Shown piece by piece: positions 34,017 through 47,100 of a stretch of DNA of 64,000 nucleotides. The DNA is from Candidatus Latescibacterota bacterium (GTDB lineage Bacteria; JAAXHH01): the NCBI GenBank assembly GCA_022822725.1, contig JAJEAN010000007.1, positions 445,435 through 509,434 on the forward strand, read 5' to 3'. Made by a program: the position numbers and the translations under genes. A model generated the notes under the pieces. That model saw nothing but the letters and a program-made list of their open reading frames with translations. It did no database searches and was not told the origin of the DNA. The first letter of the stretch is position 1, and each line of letters opens with the position of its first letter.

Positions 34017-35990
34017 TCATTTCTGCCGCTTATTCCGCCCCGAACTCGAGGAACGGCCGATTGAACCGGACTTGCGACCGGACGCTGACGGTGACCCGCT
34101 CTTTCGGACGTTGGGCGTGCCGCGAGGTTGCTGCCTGACGCTCGGGGTATTTCGCGGTTGCTGGCGAACACTCGGTGCGTTCCGAGGTTGTTTCCGGATA
34201 TCCTGGCCGGATTGCCTTACGCGGGTTGGCGTGCTGCGCGGTTTTTGCCTGGCTATCTGGCTCAAAGGCGGTTTGACCCTGACGAAATCCTCCCTGCTGC
34301 GCCCCGAACCGGCACGTACGTTCGTAGCCTGCCGTTCGCGGTCCGGATTTCTGTTGGAAGTCGATACCTGCTTGCCGCGGTCCGGATTGCGATTCGGCGA
34401 ATTCGACCCGGCTAAACGCGGTTTCTTGATGCGATCCGGTTGCCGCCCCAATTCCCGCCGGAGTTGATCGAATCGGTTGGCAGCACCCTTGCCCTTGCTG
34501 GACGAAACAGCCGTACGGTTTCGATCCGGCCTGACCGCCCGGTCCGGATACCGACGTATTACCCGAACCGGCTTCAATCCGCGCCGGACATTCCGGTGCC
34601 TTCGGTCCACGACGATCACGTCGCGTCCCCATCGTCTTCTCGGATGGGGCCACGGGTTGAATCGCACGAACAGCCAGGGATGGAACGAACGCCAATAGAC
34701 ACCCGTTCGGCAACTCCAGGGTACGTACACGATGCCCGGTCTCAGCACTGGTTCGCACCACCAGGGCCAGTGTCCCGGCAATACGCCTGGATGAACGACT
34801 ACGGTGGTTCCGCGATCGATCACCGTTTTCTCTTCATCTTCCGTTTCGCCTTCCCCGCTTTCTTCTGTATCGGTCGCTTCATTCGGATCGCTTGTACCGT
34901 GCCGGCCGGCATTCGAAGTGGAAGCGAAGGCATCCTCGGTCGTCCCGTCAGGATTCGTCGCAGACACCGAATCTCCCGATTCAGCAGCCAGTTTGTACCA
35001 CCTGGCCGCTTCTTCGAAGTTCTGCGCCACGCCCAGTCCTTCCGCGTACATGTTGCCCAGGGCATACTGGGCGTCGGCCAGTCCCTGCTCGGCCGCCAGC
35101 CGGTACCACATCGCGGCTTCGATGTAGTTCTGTGCTACGCTCAGTCCCGCCGCGCCGAAGGAGCCCGGGTCGACGGATGCATCCCCCGTTTTCTGTTCAG
35201 CGGCCATCGCGTACAGGGATCCCAGGTTGAACTGCGCTTCAGCAAGGCCCTGATCCGCGGCCAACCGGTACCACCGGGCTGCTTCGCCGTAGCTCTGGAG
35301 CACGCCTTCGCCCTCGGCAAACAGGGAACCCAGGAGGTTCTGTGCGTCGGCAAGCCCCTGTTCGGCGGCCGCGAGATACCATCGGGCGGCATCCGGGAAG
35401 CTCTGCGGCACGCCATGGCCCGCGTCATACATGGTTCCCAGGACAAACTGGGCGCCGGCCAGTCCCTGCTCGGCCGCTTTGCGGTACCACTTCGCGGCTT
35501 CAACCTCGTCCGGGGTCACGCCAAAACCGAAGTAGTGCATGAATCCGTAGTTCATCTGCGCCACGGCATGGCCCCCTTCGGCCGCAGCGCGACAGGCGGG
35601 CACCAGGGCGGTTGCTTCTTCAGGAGTCAAATGGCGCAACGCCTCGGACCGCGAGAAATCCTCCTTGCATGCAGCGAGCACAGGGTCCAAGCCACCCTGG
35701 GCGGTCTGATCCGGCTGATCGATCGGTGCGGGCTGAACGGGCTGAGCGGCCTGGGGGTCCTGGTCGGAATATGCGGGCTGAACGGGCTGTGTGGCCTGGG
35801 CGTCCCGGTCGGAATATGCGGACTGGTCGGGCTGTGTGGATTGGGCCGATACGTCATTTGCCTGTATGACCGAGATACATATCAAAAGTGGCAGTATCGT
35901 CCTCAAACGCGGCGGTACCGTCCTCATCGGTGAAGGTATGGTCCTCAAACGCGGCGGTACCGTCCTCATCGGTGGCAGTTTGGTCCTCAT
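34017..35990 (-). CDS. Secreted Sel1-repeat protein with arginine-rich C-terminal tail
   Basis: A 657-residue exported protein. A long basic N-terminus made of duplicated PPRLRT segments leads into a hydrophobic core (ILPLLICISVI) and a likely cleavage after VSA. A low-complexity region follows (15-residue repeats with TQPVQPAYSD), then about six Sel1 tetratricopeptide-like repeats (about 115-360, for example AAKWYRKAAEQGLAGAQFVL), an acidic linker, a Trp/Pro-rich block (PGHWPWWCEP to RFNPWPHP) and a tail of about 180 residues rich in Arg, Pro, Gln and Ser. ATG 35990 is supported by AGGAGG seven bases upstream. Sel1 proteins mediate protein contacts at membranes; the basic tail may bind wall polymers or nucleic acid. 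Confidence 0.75.
   Translation of the reverse strand: MRTKLPPMRTVPPRLRTIPSPMRTVPPRLRTILPLLICISVIQANDVSAQSTQPDQSAYSDRDAQATQPVQPAYSDQDPQAAQPVQPAPIDQPDQTAQGGLDPVLAACKEDFSRSEALRHLTPEEATALVPACRAAAEGGHAVAQMNYGFMHYFGFGVTPDEVEAAKWYRKAAEQGLAGAQFVLGTMYDAGHGVPQSFPDAARWYLAAAEQGLADAQNLLGSLFAEGEGVLQSYGEAARWYRLAADQGLAEAQFNLGSLYAMAAEQKTGDASVDPGSFGAAGLSVAQNYIEAAMWYRLAAEQGLADAQYALGNMYAEGLGVAQNFEEAARWYKLAAESGDSVSATNPDGTTEDAFASTSNAGRHGTSDPNEATDTEESGEGETEDEEKTVIDRGTTVVVHPGVLPGHWPWWCEPVLRPGIVYVPWSCRTGVYWRSFHPWLFVRFNPWPHPRRRWGRDVIVVDRRHRNVRRGLKPVRVIRRYPDRAVRPDRNRTAVSSSKGKGAANRFDQLRRELGRQPDRIKKPRLAGSNSPNRNPDRGKQVSTSNRNPDRERQATNVRAGSGRSREDFVRVKPPLSQIARQKPRSTPTRVRQSGQDIRKQPRNAPSVRQQPRNTPSVRQQPRGTPNVRKSGSPSASGRKSGSIGRSSSSGRNKRQK
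35899..35990. repeat. 42-bp in-frame tandem duplication in a signal-peptide region
   Basis: A 42-bp unit beginning GTCCTCAAACGCGGCGGTAC is present at 35899-35940 and 35941-35982, with part of a third at 35983-35990. It encodes a 14-residue repeat, PPRLRT plus spacer, at the N-terminus of the Sel1 protein, so the frame is preserved and the n-region of the signal peptide is lengthened. A separate 45-bp repeat further into the gene encodes the TQPVQPAYSD segments. Confidence 0.9.
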
Positions 35991-37668: not shown

Positions 37669-38448
37669 ATGCGCTCGAGCAAGGTCCTCTCCAAGCTCCG
37701 TTCCTCCGGCTTCGTCCGGATGGCCGGTCTCGGCCATTACCTGCCGTTTTACATCCGCTACGCCGCCCATTTCAAGTTCGACGGCCTGTGGTTCGACCTG
37801 GAACACCGGGCCATGGATTCCCGGGAGGTGCAGTCGATCCTGGCCATGTGCCGGCAGCACGACATCGATTGCATGGTGCGCCCGCCGACCCTGGAAAGGA
37901 CCCGGCTGTACCGGTACCTGGAAGACGGCGCCACCGGATTCATGATCCCCTTCATGTCCACGGCGGAAATCGCGCGCCACGTCGTCGATTGCACGAAGTT
38001 CCCGCCCCTGGGCAACCGGGGCATCGACGGCGCGGGTATCGACGGCGATTTCGGTATCGAAGTGTGGAAGGAGGGGACCACCTATTTCGAGGACGCCAAC
38101 CGGGAGACCTTCATCGTGGGCCAGATCGAAACCGTGGAAGGCCTGCGCAACGTGGACGCCATCGCGGCTGTCGAAGGCATCGACGTGGTCTTCATCGGCC
38201 CCGCCGACCTGACGCGGCGCCTGGAGACCGACCCCAACGTCAACTGGACGCTGGACGACGCGATTTCGCGGGTATCGGACGCGGCCGAACGGCACGGCAA
38301 GGCCTGGGGCATCACCGCAGGTACGCCCGAACAGGTGGCGAATTACCGAAGCCTGGGTGCCAGCCTCGTACCATGGGGCGGAGATTTCAACCTGATGAAG
38401 GTGCTTGAGCAGTGCAGCAAGGACCTGGACGCGATCCCGGGCGCGTGA
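37669..38448 (+). CDS. HpcH/HpaI aldolase family protein
   Basis: A 259-residue class II pyruvate aldolase. The full signature is present: DGLWFDLEHRAMD with D43, E45 and H46, then GQIETVEGLRNVDAI with the metal-binding Glu, and DVVFIGPADLTRRL with the second metal ligand Asp. Such enzymes split 2-keto-3-deoxy sugar acids or hydroxy-keto acids into pyruvate and an aldehyde. ATG 37669 has AAAGGA upstream. It is followed closely by a Kelch protein. In contrast to the aldolase at 18419, its catalytic histidine is retained. Confidence 0.88.
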   Translation: MRSSKVLSKLRSSGFVRMAGLGHYLPFYIRYAAHFKFDGLWFDLEHRAMDSREVQSILAMCRQHDIDCMVRPPTLERTRLYRYLEDGATGFMIPFMSTAEIARHVVDCTKFPPLGNRGIDGAGIDGDFGIEVWKEGTTYFEDANRETFIVGQIETVEGLRNVDAIAAVEGIDVVFIGPADLTRRLETDPNVNWTLDDAISRVSDAAERHGKAWGITAGTPEQVANYRSLGASLVPWGGDFNLMKVLEQCSKDLDAIPGA

Positions 38449-38455
38449 TTGCGCC

Positions 38456-39484
38456 GTGAAGCCTGTTCAGAAGGATGATATCGCTGACCGTTCATCCTAC
38501 CATACTTCCTATAGTGATCTGATATTGAGCTATCGGTGGCGACAGGTAACCGCCCATGCGCCCTTCGCGCCCCGCGACGGGGCCGGTGCGCTGGTATTCG
38601 ATGGGGCCATGTGGCTGATCGGCGGCTGGAATCCCCGCGACAAAGTCCATTTCCCCCGGATTTGCAGCAGCGACGTCTGGCGGTCCACCGAAGGGCGCGA
38701 CTGGTCGCTGGTCAAACCCAACACCTATCTGAACGACTCATTCGAACCGAAGAAGGACTGGGCGGGGAGGCACACGGGCGGATACGCCGTGCACGACGGC
38801 GCCATGTGGCTGGTCGGAGGCGATGCGAACCAGGGGTATCACCAGAACGACGTCTGGGTGTCCGCCGACGGCCGGGACTGGCGCTGCGTGCTTGAAGAGG
38901 CGCCCTGGGCACCCCGCGTGTTGCACGGCACGGCCGCCTACGACGGGAAGCTCTGGGTCTGGGGCGGACAGACCATGCCCGGGTTCGCCGGCGGGACGGA
39001 CCGTTTCTACGATGATGCATGGGTTTCGCCAGATGGAACCACGTGGACGCCGCTCGAGCCGAAGGAACCCCGGTGGGCGCCGCGGGGGATGGTGGGCGGC
39101 AGTGTCGTGCATGAGGGACGCCTCTGGATCCTCGGCGGCGGTACATATGATACGCCGGACACGCCCGAACGCACGTTCCACAACGACGTGTGGAGTACCG
39201 CCGATGGCGTCCATTGGAAATGCCACACGCCCGGCGCGCCCTGGTCTCCGCGTCAGTATCACGGCACGGCGGTATTCGACGGAAGGATGTGGGTGCTGGG
39301 TGGATGGAATCGCCGAGACCTGAATGACGTGTGGTATTCGTCGGACGGAATTACCTGGTTCGAAGTGCCCGATACGCCCTGGCCGGCCCGCCACGCGGCC
39401 AGTGTCTACGTTTACGACGACGCGATCTGGATCGCTGCGGGCAGTCACATGGTCTCGGACGTGTGGATGCTGGAGAGGTGCTGA
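38456..39484 (+). CDS. Kelch-repeat beta-propeller protein
   Basis: A protein of about 342 residues made of six Kelch-type repeats, each with a DGxxWxxGG core: DGAMWLIGGWN, DGAMWLVGGDA, DGKLWVWGGQT, EGRLWILGGGT, DGRMWVLGGWN and a final, weaker DDAIWIAAGSH. It should form one six-bladed propeller. No signal peptide is apparent. Start GTG 38456 (eight bases after the aldolase stop) is tentative; the open frame extends into the aldolase gene. Kelch propellers act as sialic-acid or sugar mutarotases or binding scaffolds; coupling to the aldolase is likely from spacing but the role is unknown. Confidence 0.75.
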   Translation: MKPVQKDDIADRSSYHTSYSDLILSYRWRQVTAHAPFAPRDGAGALVFDGAMWLIGGWNPRDKVHFPRICSSDVWRSTEGRDWSLVKPNTYLNDSFEPKKDWAGRHTGGYAVHDGAMWLVGGDANQGYHQNDVWVSADGRDWRCVLEEAPWAPRVLHGTAAYDGKLWVWGGQTMPGFAGGTDRFYDDAWVSPDGTTWTPLEPKEPRWAPRGMVGGSVVHEGRLWILGGGTYDTPDTPERTFHNDVWSTADGVHWKCHTPGAPWSPRQYHGTAVFDGRMWVLGGWNRRDLNDVWYSSDGITWFEVPDTPWPARHAASVYVYDDAIWIAAGSHMVSDVWMLERC

Positions 39485-42631: not shown

Positions 42632-43465
42632 ATGGCGACCGGTTTGACCGAACAACAGATCAGCCAGTATCTCGAAGACGGCTTTCTGCCGATCGAAAGG
42701 CTGTTCGACCCCGCTTCACTCGATCCCCTGATCGCGGAATTGGACGAGGTCGTCGATACATGGGCGGAAAGGTACTACGCGGACGGCAAGCTGGGGAACC
42801 GATTTACGAACGAACCCTTCGAGCGAAGGCTGTACCTGATTCACGAAGCGATGGACGGGTGTTGCAGGGAGCTCATGGAAGCCGTACTGGGCAAACGGAA
42901 GACCGCGGGCATGTTTCACGTCATGACCCTGCCCGGGATTCTCGATGTGGTCGAATCCCTCATCGGTCCGGAGATCCTGGTCCATCCCCAGTTCAACTCC
43001 CGGGCCAAGCTGCCGGACAAGACTTCCATCGTGGACTGGCACCAGGACATCGGTTTTCTGGACCCGGACGTGATGCAGACCTTCATGGTCAATTTCTGGC
43101 TGCCGCTGGTAGATACAAACGAACACAACGGCTGCCTGGAAGTGATCCGCGGCAGTCACCGCAGCGAACGCCTGCCCTTCGAGGACTCGCCCGAGAATAT
43201 CGATCCGGATGCGCTGCCCGCCGGTGACCGGGTTACCTGCCCCATCCCAAGGGGCGGCGTGCTCCTGCTGCAGCACACCACGGTGCATCGGTCCGCGCCC
43301 AATTTCTCGGATCACATACGGTGGAGCCTGGATATCCGGTACAGCGACTGGCGAAAGCCCACGGGCAGGGACGACGTACCGGGTTTTGTCGCCCGCAGCC
43401 GGTCGCATCCTGAGAAAGTCGCGGCCGGACACGAAGCATGGCAGCGATTGTTCGAACCGGCGTAA
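42632..43465 (+). CDS. Phytanoyl-CoA dioxygenase (PhyH) family Fe(II)/2-oxoglutarate enzyme
   Basis: A 277-residue non-haem iron oxygenase. The iron-binding facial triad is visible as VDWHQDIG (H-x-D) and the later His in LLLQHTTVHRSAPN, followed by the Arg of the 2-oxoglutarate site in HIRWSLDIRY. PhyH-family enzymes hydroxylate small organic substrates. It ends three bases before the start of the first nucleobase permease, so it is almost certainly co-transcribed with it; hydroxylation of an imported heterocycle is a reasonable but unproven reading. Confidence 0.85.
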   Translation: MATGLTEQQISQYLEDGFLPIERLFDPASLDPLIAELDEVVDTWAERYYADGKLGNRFTNEPFERRLYLIHEAMDGCCRELMEAVLGKRKTAGMFHVMTLPGILDVVESLIGPEILVHPQFNSRAKLPDKTSIVDWHQDIGFLDPDVMQTFMVNFWLPLVDTNEHNGCLEVIRGSHRSERLPFEDSPENIDPDALPAGDRVTCPIPRGGVLLLQHTTVHRSAPNFSDHIRWSLDIRYSDWRKPTGRDDVPGFVARSRSHPEKVAAGHEAWQRLFEPA

Positions 43466-43468
43466 TTC

Positions 43469-45232
43469 ATGGACGAAGATACCGCACATAACCAGTCCGG
43501 CGTTCGATACGCAGCGGACGAAAGACCGCCGATTCTCCTTGCAATCGGTCTCGGCCTCCAGTTCGCCTTGCTTACCGTTGGCGGCGTGTTCCTGAAGGTG
43601 GCCATCGTGAGCCGCGCCGGAGGGGCACCGGAATCTTACCTGGCGTGGGCCGTGTTCGCCGCCGCGGTCATCACCGGAATCACCACGGTCATCCAGGTCC
43701 TGCGCGTCGGCCGCGTGGGCGCCGGCTACGTACTCCTGATGGGCACGTCGGGCAGCTTCATCGCGATCTGCATCGCAGCGCTCCTGGCGGGCGGCCCTGC
43801 GTTGATGGCTACCCTTATCATCGTCTCGTCGCTCTTCCAATTCCTGCTGTCCGCCCGCCTGTCCCTGTTTCGCAGAATCCTGACGCCGGTCGTTACGGGC
43901 ACGGTCATCATGCTGATTCCCGTCTCGATAATGCCCGTGGCATTCAGCATGCTGGGCGATGTACCCGAAGGGCTCCCGGCGTCAGCCGCCCCGGTCACGG
44001 TGCTGACGACCCTGCTGGTCACCATCGTCATTGCTTTGAAGGCCCGGTCGTCGCTGCGGTTGTGGGCGCCCGTGATCGGCATGGTCGCGGGATCCGTGGC
44101 AAGCGGGTTTTTCGGCCTGTACGACACGAGTAGCGTGGCCGACGCTTCCTGGATCGGGTTTCCGGAGGGCAGCTGGCCGGGTGTCGATCTCTCTTTCGGC
44201 CCCGCGTTCTGGGCGTTGCTTCCCGCCTTCTTGTTCGTAACGCTGGTGGATGCGGTGGATACGATCGGCGATTCGGTCGCGATCCAGCGCATATCGTGGC
44301 GCCGTCCCCGGGCGGTGGACTACCGGGCCGTGCAAGGCGCGCTCGCCGCGGACGGCACGGGCAATCTCCTTTCCGGTCTGCTGGGGACATTGCCCAACAC
44401 CACCTATTCCTCGAGTATCGCGGTGACCGAACTGACCGGCGTGGCCTCCCGCATGGTCGGGCTGGTCGTAGGATTGCTCTATGTATGCATCGCCTTTGTC
44501 CCAAAGGTTCCCGCGGTGGTCCTCGCCATACCGAATCCCGTGGCCGGGAGTTTCCTGATCGTCCTGCTCGCCATACTGTTCATCATCGGCATGAAACTGG
44601 TCGTGCAGGATGGAATCGATTACCGCAGCGGGCTTGTCGCCGGAGTCGGATTCTGGATCGGCGTGGGGTTTCAGAACGGCGCGATCTTTCCTACGCTGGT
44701 CGCAGACTTCGCCGGTGGCTTCCTGGGGAACGGAATGACGGCCGGAGGACTGGCGGCGATGCTCATGACTTTGTTCCTGGAGTTGGCCGCTCCGCGCCGG
44801 TACCGCATGGAGACGGACTTCGAACTCACCGCGCTGCCGAAGATCCGGAAGTTCCTGGAAGTTTTCGCCGCCAGACAGGGATGGGACGGGGCCACGGCGG
44901 AACGGCTCGTCGCCGCCAGCGAAGAGTCGATACTCACGTTGAATCCGGGACAGGATGAGTCCGGTCAGGTCCGGAGGCTGCTACTGGTGGCGCACAGGGA
45001 AGGCACCTGCGCGGTACTCGAACTGGTCGTAGCTACGGGCGAAGGCAATCTCCAGGACAGGATCGAGCTCCTCGGCGACGAACGGGCCGTGGAGACGCCT
45101 GAGGAGCTGGAAGTCTCGCTGCGTCTCCTGAGGCACTTCGCGACTTCGGTGCGCCACCAGCAGTACCACGATACAGACATCATCACCCTCCGTGTGGACA
45201 TCGGGCCGGTCGATCCCGCTGGAACCCCTTGA
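43469..45232 (+). CDS. Nucleobase:cation symporter-2 permease with fused C-terminal GHKL/RsbW-like domain
   Basis: A 587-residue protein. Residues about 20-440 are an NCS2 (uracil/xanthine permease) transporter with some 12-14 membrane segments and the family signature TTYSSSIAVTELTGVASR; the DTIGDS element before it is also typical. Residues about 445-585 are a soluble extension absent from ordinary permeases: LPKIRKFLEVFAARQGWDGATAERLVAASEESIL resembles the start of anti-sigma-factor-type histidine-kinase-like ATPase domains, and the end (SLRLLRHFATSVRHQQYHDTDIITLRV) fits the last helix and strand. The expected N-box asparagine and glycine-rich ATP lid are not evident, so it may be a degenerate binding domain. 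Paralogue of the next gene. Confidence 0.8.
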   Translation: MDEDTAHNQSGVRYAADERPPILLAIGLGLQFALLTVGGVFLKVAIVSRAGGAPESYLAWAVFAAAVITGITTVIQVLRVGRVGAGYVLLMGTSGSFIAICIAALLAGGPALMATLIIVSSLFQFLLSARLSLFRRILTPVVTGTVIMLIPVSIMPVAFSMLGDVPEGLPASAAPVTVLTTLLVTIVIALKARSSLRLWAPVIGMVAGSVASGFFGLYDTSSVADASWIGFPEGSWPGVDLSFGPAFWALLPAFLFVTLVDAVDTIGDSVAIQRISWRRPRAVDYRAVQGALAADGTGNLLSGLLGTLPNTTYSSSIAVTELTGVASRMVGLVVGLLYVCIAFVPKVPAVVLAIPNPVAGSFLIVLLAILFIIGMKLVVQDGIDYRSGLVAGVGFWIGVGFQNGAIFPTLVADFAGGFLGNGMTAGGLAAMLMTLFLELAAPRRYRMETDFELTALPKIRKFLEVFAARQGWDGATAERLVAASEESILTLNPGQDESGQVRRLLLVAHREGTCAVLELVVATGEGNLQDRIELLGDERAVETPEELEVSLRLLRHFATSVRHQQYHDTDIITLRVDIGPVDPAGTP

Positions 45233-45336
45233 CCTGGTGAGGCGTACCGTTATTTTGTTTTTTTAAGTTTTTCCCTGAATAACTACTGATACTGGTCATT
45301 TAGATACACGAAACACGATTGACGAATGGCGAATCA

Positions 45337-47100
45337 ATGACCCGGAATGCGATGGACAGCCAATCAGGTGTCCGGTACGAGGCGGACGAAAAACCGCCGA
45401 TCCCGCTGACGATCGGACTCGGACTGCAGATCGCGCTGCTCACGGTGGGCGGGGTAGTGCTGACCGTCGCAATCGTGAGCCGTGCCGGCGGCGCCAGCGA
45501 ATCCTACCTGACCTGGGGCGTTTTCGCCGCCGCGGCGATCTGTGGTATCACCACGGCCATCCAGGCGCTTCGAGTCGGCAGGATCGGCGCCGGCTACGTG
45601 CTCATGATGGGTACTTCCGGCAGTTTCATCGCGGTGTGCATAACGGCGCTCGTACAGGGCGGGCCGCCGCTGATGGCCACGCTGATCATCATCTCCTCCC
45701 TGTTTCAGTTTCTGCTGTCGACGCGCCTGTCGCTGCTTCGCAGGATACTGACGCCCGTGGTATCCGGTACGGTAATCATGTTGATTTCGGTTACCGTGAT
45801 GCCCATCGCCTTCGATATGATCGGGGACGTGCCCGAAGGCGAACCCGTTACCACGGCCCTGATCATCGCCGCCGTCACCATGCTGTGCTCCATCGGCATC
45901 GCGTTGAAGGCGACCTCCTCGCTGCGTCTCTGGGCGCCGGTGATCGGGATCGCGGCCGGGTCCGTCGTCAGCGCCTACTTCGGGTTCTACGATACCGCCC
46001 GGGTGGCGGCCGCCCCCTGGGTGGGTTTGCCGGAAGGCGCGTGGCCGGGGATCGATCTTGCGTTCGGGACGGCATTCTGGGGGCTGCTGCCCGCCTTCCT
46101 GTTCGTGACGCTGGTGGGCGCGGTGGAAACGATCGGTGACTCCGTGGCCATACAACGGGTTTCCTGGCGCCGTCCGAGGGCCGTGGACTACCGGGCCGTC
46201 CAGGGCGCGGTGGCGGCGGACGGCCTGGGTAACCTGCTGTCCGGTCTCCTGGGCACGGTGCCCAACACGACCTACTCCACGAGTATCGCCGTGACCGAGT
46301 TGACCGGCGTGGCGGCCCGAAGGGTGGGCGTCGTCGTGGGCGCGGCATTCATCGCGATCGCTTTCGTGCCGAAGTTCCTCGCCGTCGTGCTGGCCATACC
46401 TAATCCCGTGGCAGGCGGATTCCTCATCGTACTGCTGTCTCTGCTCTTCGTGATCGGGATGAAACTGGTCATCCAGGATGGCATAGACTACCGGAAGGGC
46501 CTGATCGTCGGCGTGAGTTTCTGGATCGGCGTGGGTTTCCAGAATAACGCCATTTTCCCTGAGCTTGTATCGGGTTTCGCCGGTGGACTCTTGCAGAACG
46601 GTATGACGGCCGGCGGCCTTACCGCCATGATCATGACGCTGTTTATGGAACTGACCTCTCCGCGGAGATACCGGCTCGAATCCGATCTGACGCCGGCGGC
46701 GTTACCCAGAATCAAGACTTTTCTGGAAGATTTCGCGTCGCGCAACGGATGGGGCTCCGCCATGTCCGACCGGCTGGTGGCGGCGAGCGAAGAAACACTG
46801 CTCTCACTGTCCCGCGAGGAAGACGACGCCACCACGCGAAAACGCCTGCTTCTGGTCGCGCATCGGGAGGAAGGAAGTGCCGTACTCGAACTGGTGGCAG
46901 CCACGGGCGAAGGGAACCTGCAGGACCGGATCGAATTACTCGGCGACGAAAGGGCTGTGGAGACCCCGGAGGAGATGGAGGTTTCGCTTCGTCTCCTGAG
47001 GCACTTCGCTTCGTCGGTGCACCACCAGCAGTACCACGATACCGATATCATCTCGCTCAAGGTGGATGTTCGCCACACTCACACCGGCGACTCGTCCTGA
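45337..47100 (+). CDS. Nucleobase:cation symporter-2 permease with fused C-terminal GHKL/RsbW-like domain (paralogue)
   Basis: A protein of about 587 residues, very similar over its whole length to the preceding gene, so the fusion arose before the duplication. The NCS2 part has NTTYSTSIAVTELTGVAARR; the C-terminal part has LPRIKTFLEDFASRNGWGSAMSDRLVAASEETLL and again SLRLLRHFASSVHHQQYHDTDIISLKV. Possible starts are TTG 45319, ATG 45337 and ATG 45352; ATG 45337 is a compromise, and the last aligns best with its paralogue. The 100-base gap from the first permease has a T-rich stretch (45250-45275), so separate transcription is possible. Confidence 0.8.
   Translation: MTRNAMDSQSGVRYEADEKPPIPLTIGLGLQIALLTVGGVVLTVAIVSRAGGASESYLTWGVFAAAAICGITTAIQALRVGRIGAGYVLMMGTSGSFIAVCITALVQGGPPLMATLIIISSLFQFLLSTRLSLLRRILTPVVSGTVIMLISVTVMPIAFDMIGDVPEGEPVTTALIIAAVTMLCSIGIALKATSSLRLWAPVIGIAAGSVVSAYFGFYDTARVAAAPWVGLPEGAWPGIDLAFGTAFWGLLPAFLFVTLVGAVETIGDSVAIQRVSWRRPRAVDYRAVQGAVAADGLGNLLSGLLGTVPNTTYSTSIAVTELTGVAARRVGVVVGAAFIAIAFVPKFLAVVLAIPNPVAGGFLIVLLSLLFVIGMKLVIQDGIDYRKGLIVGVSFWIGVGFQNNAIFPELVSGFAGGLLQNGMTAGGLTAMIMTLFMELTSPRRYRLESDLTPAALPRIKTFLEDFASRNGWGSAMSDRLVAASEETLLSLSREEDDATTRKRLLLVAHREEGSAVLELVAATGEGNLQDRIELLGDERAVETPEEMEVSLRLLRHFASSVHHQQYHDTDIISLKVDVRHTHTGDSS

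Follow-up and report, generated by a model that had tools for sequence, protein, structure and literature searches.

The 64,000-nucleotide stretch of Candidatus Latescibacterota DNA analyzed here (the window) encodes two adjacent NCS2-fold permeases that each end in a soluble RsbW-like domain, or tail. In our computations this tail lacks the nucleotide-binding motifs of RsbW, is conserved in the copies compared, and evolves under purifying selection equal to that on the membrane part. The tailed NCS2 permease is a real, conserved architecture, and we favor the reading, with a probability of roughly 0.6, that the tail is a pseudo-ATPase serving a UraA-fold transporter as a STAS-like regulatory or dimerization module, with putative docking of a partner, and that it has spread among symbionts. 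A literature search that left most subscription journals outside found no description of an NCS2-HATPase fusion or of a xanthine permease in sponge symbionts.

The two copies align without gaps at 73 to 75% identity over their whole length, tail included, and are separated by about 100 bases (Table 1). The open frame of copy 2 extends from a TTG at 45319 to 47100 (593 aa), and the ATG at 45337 is most likely its start, because the resulting 587 aa agrees with relatives. Given this short gap and the stop of a PhyH-type dioxygenase gene just 5' of copy 1, a single operon is likely, with the dioxygenase as its probable first gene judging from the spacing. A third paralogue on another contig (C4) of the same genome is 53% identical and also carries the tail. 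Neighboring genes, here and in relatives, were taken from HMM-confirmed matches only, and longest-ORF clustering was rejected on account of antisense frames in high-GC DNA. Around the pair these matches comprise PhyH dioxygenases, an amidohydrolase/deacetylase, an enolase-family dehydratase, an HpcH aldolase, a zinc dehydrogenase, and TRAP transporter subunits, which suggest catabolism of small organic compounds and fix no substrate. Elsewhere in the window, a Kelch-repeat beta-propeller protein (38405-39484, plus strand) adjoins an HpcH-type aldolase, and the protein encoded at 34017-35990 (minus strand) has weak matches to MerG, ExoR, and AlgK models that probably reflect Sel1-like repeats, a class of repeat proteins much discussed for sponge symbionts.

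Table 1. Features of the permease locus and of two comparison loci; window coordinates unless a locus is named
Feature	Location	Strand	Basis or remark
PhyH-type 2-oxoglutarate dioxygenase	42632..43465	+	Pfam PhyH 5.7e-25; stop directly 5' of copy 1
NCS2/SLC23 permease copy 1, C-terminal RsbW-like tail, 587 aa	43469..45232	+	ORF; Pfam Xan_ur_permease 6.6e-47; AF2 model resembles UraA, UapA, SVCT1
Degenerate RsbW/HATPase_c_2-like tail, copy 1, residues 440-587	44786..45232	+	AF2, Foldseek, and hhalign on tail family; motif loss
NCS2/SLC23 permease copy 2, C-terminal RsbW-like tail, 587 aa	45337..47100	+	ORF; Pfam 1.9e-50; 75% identical to copy 1
Degenerate RsbW/HATPase_c_2-like tail, copy 2	46654..47100	+	66% identity with copy 1 tail; same alignment and motif loss
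Partner-switching module 3' of tailed NCS2 permease	L020:7659-13352		RsbW and STAS likewise in L022, L030, L038
Thiodictyon divergent SLC23 pair	L125:1692-5701, plasmid pTs417

Residues 27-400 match Pfam Xan_ur_permease with 160.5 and 172.2 bits in copies 1 and 2, respectively (cutoff, 27), and the NCBIfam permease models pbuX and ncs2 are matched over their full length at scores below the cutoff. Foldseek searches with an AF2 full-length model returned UraA as the best match (E 3e-16), then UapA and SVCT1, and then SLC26, with TM scores of up to 0.83 on the target, which identifies a UraA-type fold. Relative to XanQ, the TM8 carboxylate is retained (Glu in most members, Asp in copy 1), as is the TM9 Asp. 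The NAT signature (Q-N-x-G of XanQ and UapA) is lost, with Q324 replaced by Thr or Ser, N325 by Ser, and G327 by Ser or Ala in nearly all of 96 members. The original prediction had named the pair nucleobase permeases; membership in the NCS2 family holds, and with Thr/Ser-Ser in place of Gln-Asn the word "nucleobase" is therefore a family-level label only. The putative substrate is probably a nitrogen-rich purine-like compound or a related anion.

The tail comprises approximately residues 440-578, or about 140 to 145 residues. The original prediction held that both permeases carry the same domain of about 140 residues, with an RsbW-type fold and no evident ATP-site residues, and it named a predicted structure as the refuting test, which the assignment passes. 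An AF2 model built from an alignment of 51 tails (mean pLDDT, 77; pTM, 0.75) has the expected GHKL/Bergerat sandwich with RsbW topology, in the order E-H-H-E-E-H-H-E-E (E, strand; H, helix); confidence is moderate overall and below 50 in the former ATP-lid region, and the same fold is seen again in the full-length permease model. In a Foldseek search of the PDB with the tail model, the top 20 matches are all anti-sigma factors, namely, RsbW, SpoIIAB, UsfX, or the RsbW domain of Rv1364c, with E values from 1.4e-7 to 7e-4.

Independent sequence comparisons agree with this assignment. No Pfam or NCBIfam model reaches its cutoff on the tail, and the subthreshold matches of a single tail sequence (P0001) to HATPase_c_2 (E 0.11) and to the RsbA anti-sigma model (E 0.056) are weak; against the PF13581 cutoff of 27.4 bits, the copy 1 tail scores 13.0 and the best relative 25.4. 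HATPase_c_2 is nevertheless matched by 7 of 14 diverse tails (best E, 1.5e-5), and a PDB profile search with diverse tails gave three matches only, all RsbW chains and all weak (E about 0.4 to 0.5). The PDB profile search with a narrow sponge-type tail alignment matched only low-complexity repeat proteins and was discarded, and a search with a viral fold library gave no useful match. Comparison of the tail family with four genuine RsbW-like proteins in hhalign gave an E value of 4.6e-10 across 127 columns, so that homology to RsbW, beyond the reach of Pfam cutoffs, is seen by profile-profile comparison. The tail model also retrieves free-standing genuine RsbW-like proteins in other genomes (L107, L020), and no STAS match was found in the tailed permease proteins, whose tail is RsbW-like. 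Taking predicted fold and profile similarity together, we regard the assignment of the tail to the RsbW/SpoIIAB type (HATPase_c_2, GHKL) as secure, and its function as not secure.

A joint alignment of 14 diverse tails with genuine RsbW-like proteins bears on the ATP site. The genuine proteins carry E-x-x-x-N, D-x-G-x-x-F, and G-x-G (the L107 protein is a variant at GxG), and the N-box Asn, DxGxxF, and GxG are absent from all 14 tails. The EE of the N-box helix is nearly invariant in the tails, with T, L, F, or a similar residue at the Asn position, and there is no trace of DxGxxF or GxG. In the main tail group (51-tail alignment), two new motifs, N-L-x-D and HQQYHDTD, are close to invariant. 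With three nucleotide motifs lost and new near-invariant motifs gained, we expect the tail to be a pseudo-ATPase that presents a conserved surface for contacts, and kinase activity is unlikely because of the same losses. Distant members (L103-L106, L116) have tails only 22 to 33% identical that are likewise fused to NCS2 and likewise lack the ATP motifs; the fusion therefore predates the main group.

The tail is under the same constraint as the rest of the protein. For copies 1 and 2, we obtained dN/dS values of 0.12 (membrane part) and about 0.13 (tail), which are rough because synonymous sites are near saturation; against orthologues, the values are 0.10 to 0.13 and 0.08 to 0.15, respectively. 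Purifying selection on the tail thus equals that on the membrane part, which supports the earlier suggestion that retention of the domain in both duplicates matters. Of the 98 NCS2 ORFs above 430 aa in the fetched loci, 97 carry the tail, and the last one is truncated where its locus ends; the architecture is therefore not due to chance.

We drew the 80 nearest relatives from a set of one genome per species, and all are metagenome bins. Their phylum labels include Latescibacterota, Gemmatimonadota, Alpha- and Gammaproteobacteria, Nitrospinota, Nitrospirota, Dadabacteria, Acidobacteriota, Binatia, and others. For 28 of the 80, the bin codes APA, CAR, COS, IRC, and RHO fit sponge species of Robbins et al. 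2021 (PMC8163846), a study that covers sponge species with such initials and reports lateral transfer among sponge symbionts. Two relatives have a sponge named in the record title. The SB06, MPN, and Plut bin series we take to derive from Ircinia, Aplysina, and Porites lutea, respectively. All traced sources of the nearest relatives are sponge or coral, the tracing covering all but the jk18x/p16x series (25 of the 80) and some smaller ones.

The trait is patchy within phyla. All 12 genomes of the window's genus have the tail and none of 4 other genomes of its phylum does; a narrow tail model matched 14 of 337 alphaproteobacteria (one match being a free-standing RsbW) and 3 of 321 gammaproteobacteria. 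A broad model matched 20 of 247 Acidobacteriota, 15 of 58 genomes of the phylum to which the Dadabacteria genome belongs, and 7 of 18 Nitrospinota, counts that take in a few weak matches to ordinary RsbW-type proteins. In a quick tree the phyla are interleaved, with Nitrospinota, for example, inside an alphaproteobacterial group; the tree took in three antisense frames as far outgroups, and we draw no conclusion from those frames. Spread of the gene family from one phylum to another among symbionts of sponges and corals is probable: interleaving and patchiness fit transfer between coresident symbionts and are not proof of it, since bins can hold foreign contigs. The presence of closely similar transporters in sponge and coral symbionts from many unrelated bacterial phyla suggests a tail that serves as a handle for regulation or docking.

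Several Acidobacteriota carry further copies. A second tailed permease lies 2 to 3 kb away in L076, L077, and L079, and two genomes have six to eight tail matches each, some of them partial, so the window is not alone in showing expansion. Several tail matches (G026:C25, G019:C130, G017:C1:1981744, G956:C85) are partial or truncated and may represent decaying paralogues or contig-end fragments. Acidobacteriota frames of ~940 aa were rejected as longer proteins: the one that we read (L138) consists of apparent upstream read-through plus the usual permease and tail.

Genes for partner-switching proteins occur near some relatives, complete neighbor domain sets being established in L031 and L020 only. 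In an alphaproteobacterial lineage (L031, L058, L067), two tailed permeases are followed by genes for STAS, GPP34, an ammonium transporter (AmtB), STAS, and glutamine synthetase III, and in L031 the STAS gene is immediately 3' of the permease. The apparent nitrogen cluster of this lineage spans about 4.9 to 15.1 kb in L031. A Nitrospinota lineage (L020, L022, L030, L038) has a downstream receiver-SpoIIE phosphatase, a genuine RsbW, a periplasmic binding protein, a histidine kinase, and STAS, and in L056 a STAS gene lies ~0.7 kb upstream. In all, 11 STAS ORFs occur in 1.23 Mb of loci, where the STAS density of ten such genomes (51 matches in 35 Mb) would predict about 1.8; the enrichment is suggestive only, because the 11 ORFs fall in three lineages, and it is weak once relatedness is allowed for. 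No STAS or RsbW gene was found within the 64-kb window of the pair; some 230 kb past the window, the same contig carries a STAS gene with a genuine RsbW gene close to it. The genome has a STAS gene at C9:741252. The idea that the tail binds an anti-anti-sigma partner thus finds some encouragement in the three lineages with nearby STAS genes, and none around the window pair.

We propose that the products of the two genes are elevator transporters of the UraA fold (SLC23/NCS2) and that each ends in a cytosolic pseudo-ATPase, descended from an RsbW/SpoIIAB-type anti-sigma serine kinase, that would no longer bind or hydrolyze ATP. We infer that the tail would act as a protein-interaction and dimerization module that corresponds to the STAS domain in SLC26/SulP transporters but is built from the other member of the SpoIIAA-SpoIIAB pair. 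As such, it may affect transport by steadying or tuning the transporter dimer, and its conserved C-terminal hairpin (HQQYHDTD) would be the docking site for a cytosolic partner, with a STAS protein or another tail as the likeliest candidate.

Other accounts of the tail seem less probable. It might be a membrane-tethered pseudo-anti-sigma factor that holds or releases a STAS anti-anti-sigma factor according to transport state, with uptake setting the partner-switching output. Its RsbW ancestry (Foldseek, hhalign), the STAS gene directly 3' of the permease in the alphaproteobacterial lineage, the SpoIIE-phosphatase/RsbW/STAS set in the Nitrospinota lineage, and the excess of STAS ORFs all point that way. 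The confinement of that excess to three lineages and the lack of a STAS or RsbW gene near the window pair count against it, and so does the structure of the domain: in RsbW the STAS-binding face adjoins the ATP lid, the region that is degenerate in the tails. We think such a transceptor unlikely, and we give no better odds to a tail that is a passive stabilizer or folding anchor with no regulatory partner. A passive role is consistent with conservation of the tail in every copy and with the general tendencies of UraA-fold transporters to be dimers and of RsbW domains to dimerize; however, the strictness with which HQQYHDTD is kept from phylum to phylum suggests that it makes a specific contact, which could also be that of the dimer interface.

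Least probable, in our judgment, is gating of the transporter by nucleotide or by the transported base, bound in a remodeled pocket for allosteric inhibition. A GHKL pocket without Mg-ATP chemistry could take other purines, and the Glu pair of the N-box helix persists, but no aligned tail retains the N-box Asn, DxGxxF, or GxG, so gating by nucleotide, which the original prediction had raised, is disfavored. Returning to the pseudo-ATPase module, one extension is speculative and rather doubtful: UraA-type folds may have separately recruited the two halves of partner switching, STAS in SLC26 and a dead RsbW in the tailed NCS2 permeases, the latter being a membrane-tethered STAS decoy or scaffold that couples uptake of a host-derived nitrogen compound to cell regulation in symbionts of sponges and corals and moves between phyla that share a host.

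The role of the STAS domain in SLC26 transporters is still debated, and an SLC26-related transporter fold carrying the fold of a STAS partner offers a testable mirror case for the regulation of secondary transporters. If the substrate is found, the patchy cross-phylum spread in host-associated marine bacteria would identify a nutritional trait that symbionts of sponges and corals have in common.

Among known systems, the window pair resembles NCS2/SLC23 transporters (UraA, XanQ, UapA) in its membrane domain, by Pfam and predicted fold, and in its TM8 carboxylate and TM9 Asp, but it differs in having Thr/Ser-Ser for the NAT Gln-Asn (XanQ Q324 and N325) and a tail of ~145 residues and in scoring below the ncs2 and pbuX cutoffs. 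A neighboring pair of long NCS2-type proteins in Candidatus Thiodictyon syntrophicum (WP_157818058.1 and WP_157818059.1, "Solute carrier family 23 proteins"; 568 and 595 aa) has tails of ~140 residues that look RsbW-like by eye, whereas its NAT-region residues differ from those of the window family. Similarity of these tails to the window tails or to RsbW was not significant by profile or Pfam comparison, and the pair was therefore left out of our counts; a Vibrio plasmid NCS2 protein was likewise rejected as a tailed relative, its extension being charged and different from this tail. With RsbW, SpoIIAB, and UsfX (HATPase_c_2, PF13581), the tails share fold, element order, and profile similarity over the whole length; unlike them, they lack the three ATP motifs, have new invariant motifs, and occur as transporter fusions among the copies seen. 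The SLC26/SulP-STAS arrangement (PMC8256260) likewise joins a related membrane fold to a cytosolic domain from the partner-switching toolkit, but in a different transporter family, and its tail is the STAS side, whereas the NCS2 tail is the kinase-side, RsbW-like partner. The best-supported picture is that the tailed permeases work like SLC26-STAS transporters without being members of that family and that their tail is a descendant of RsbW and not a functional RsbW kinase.
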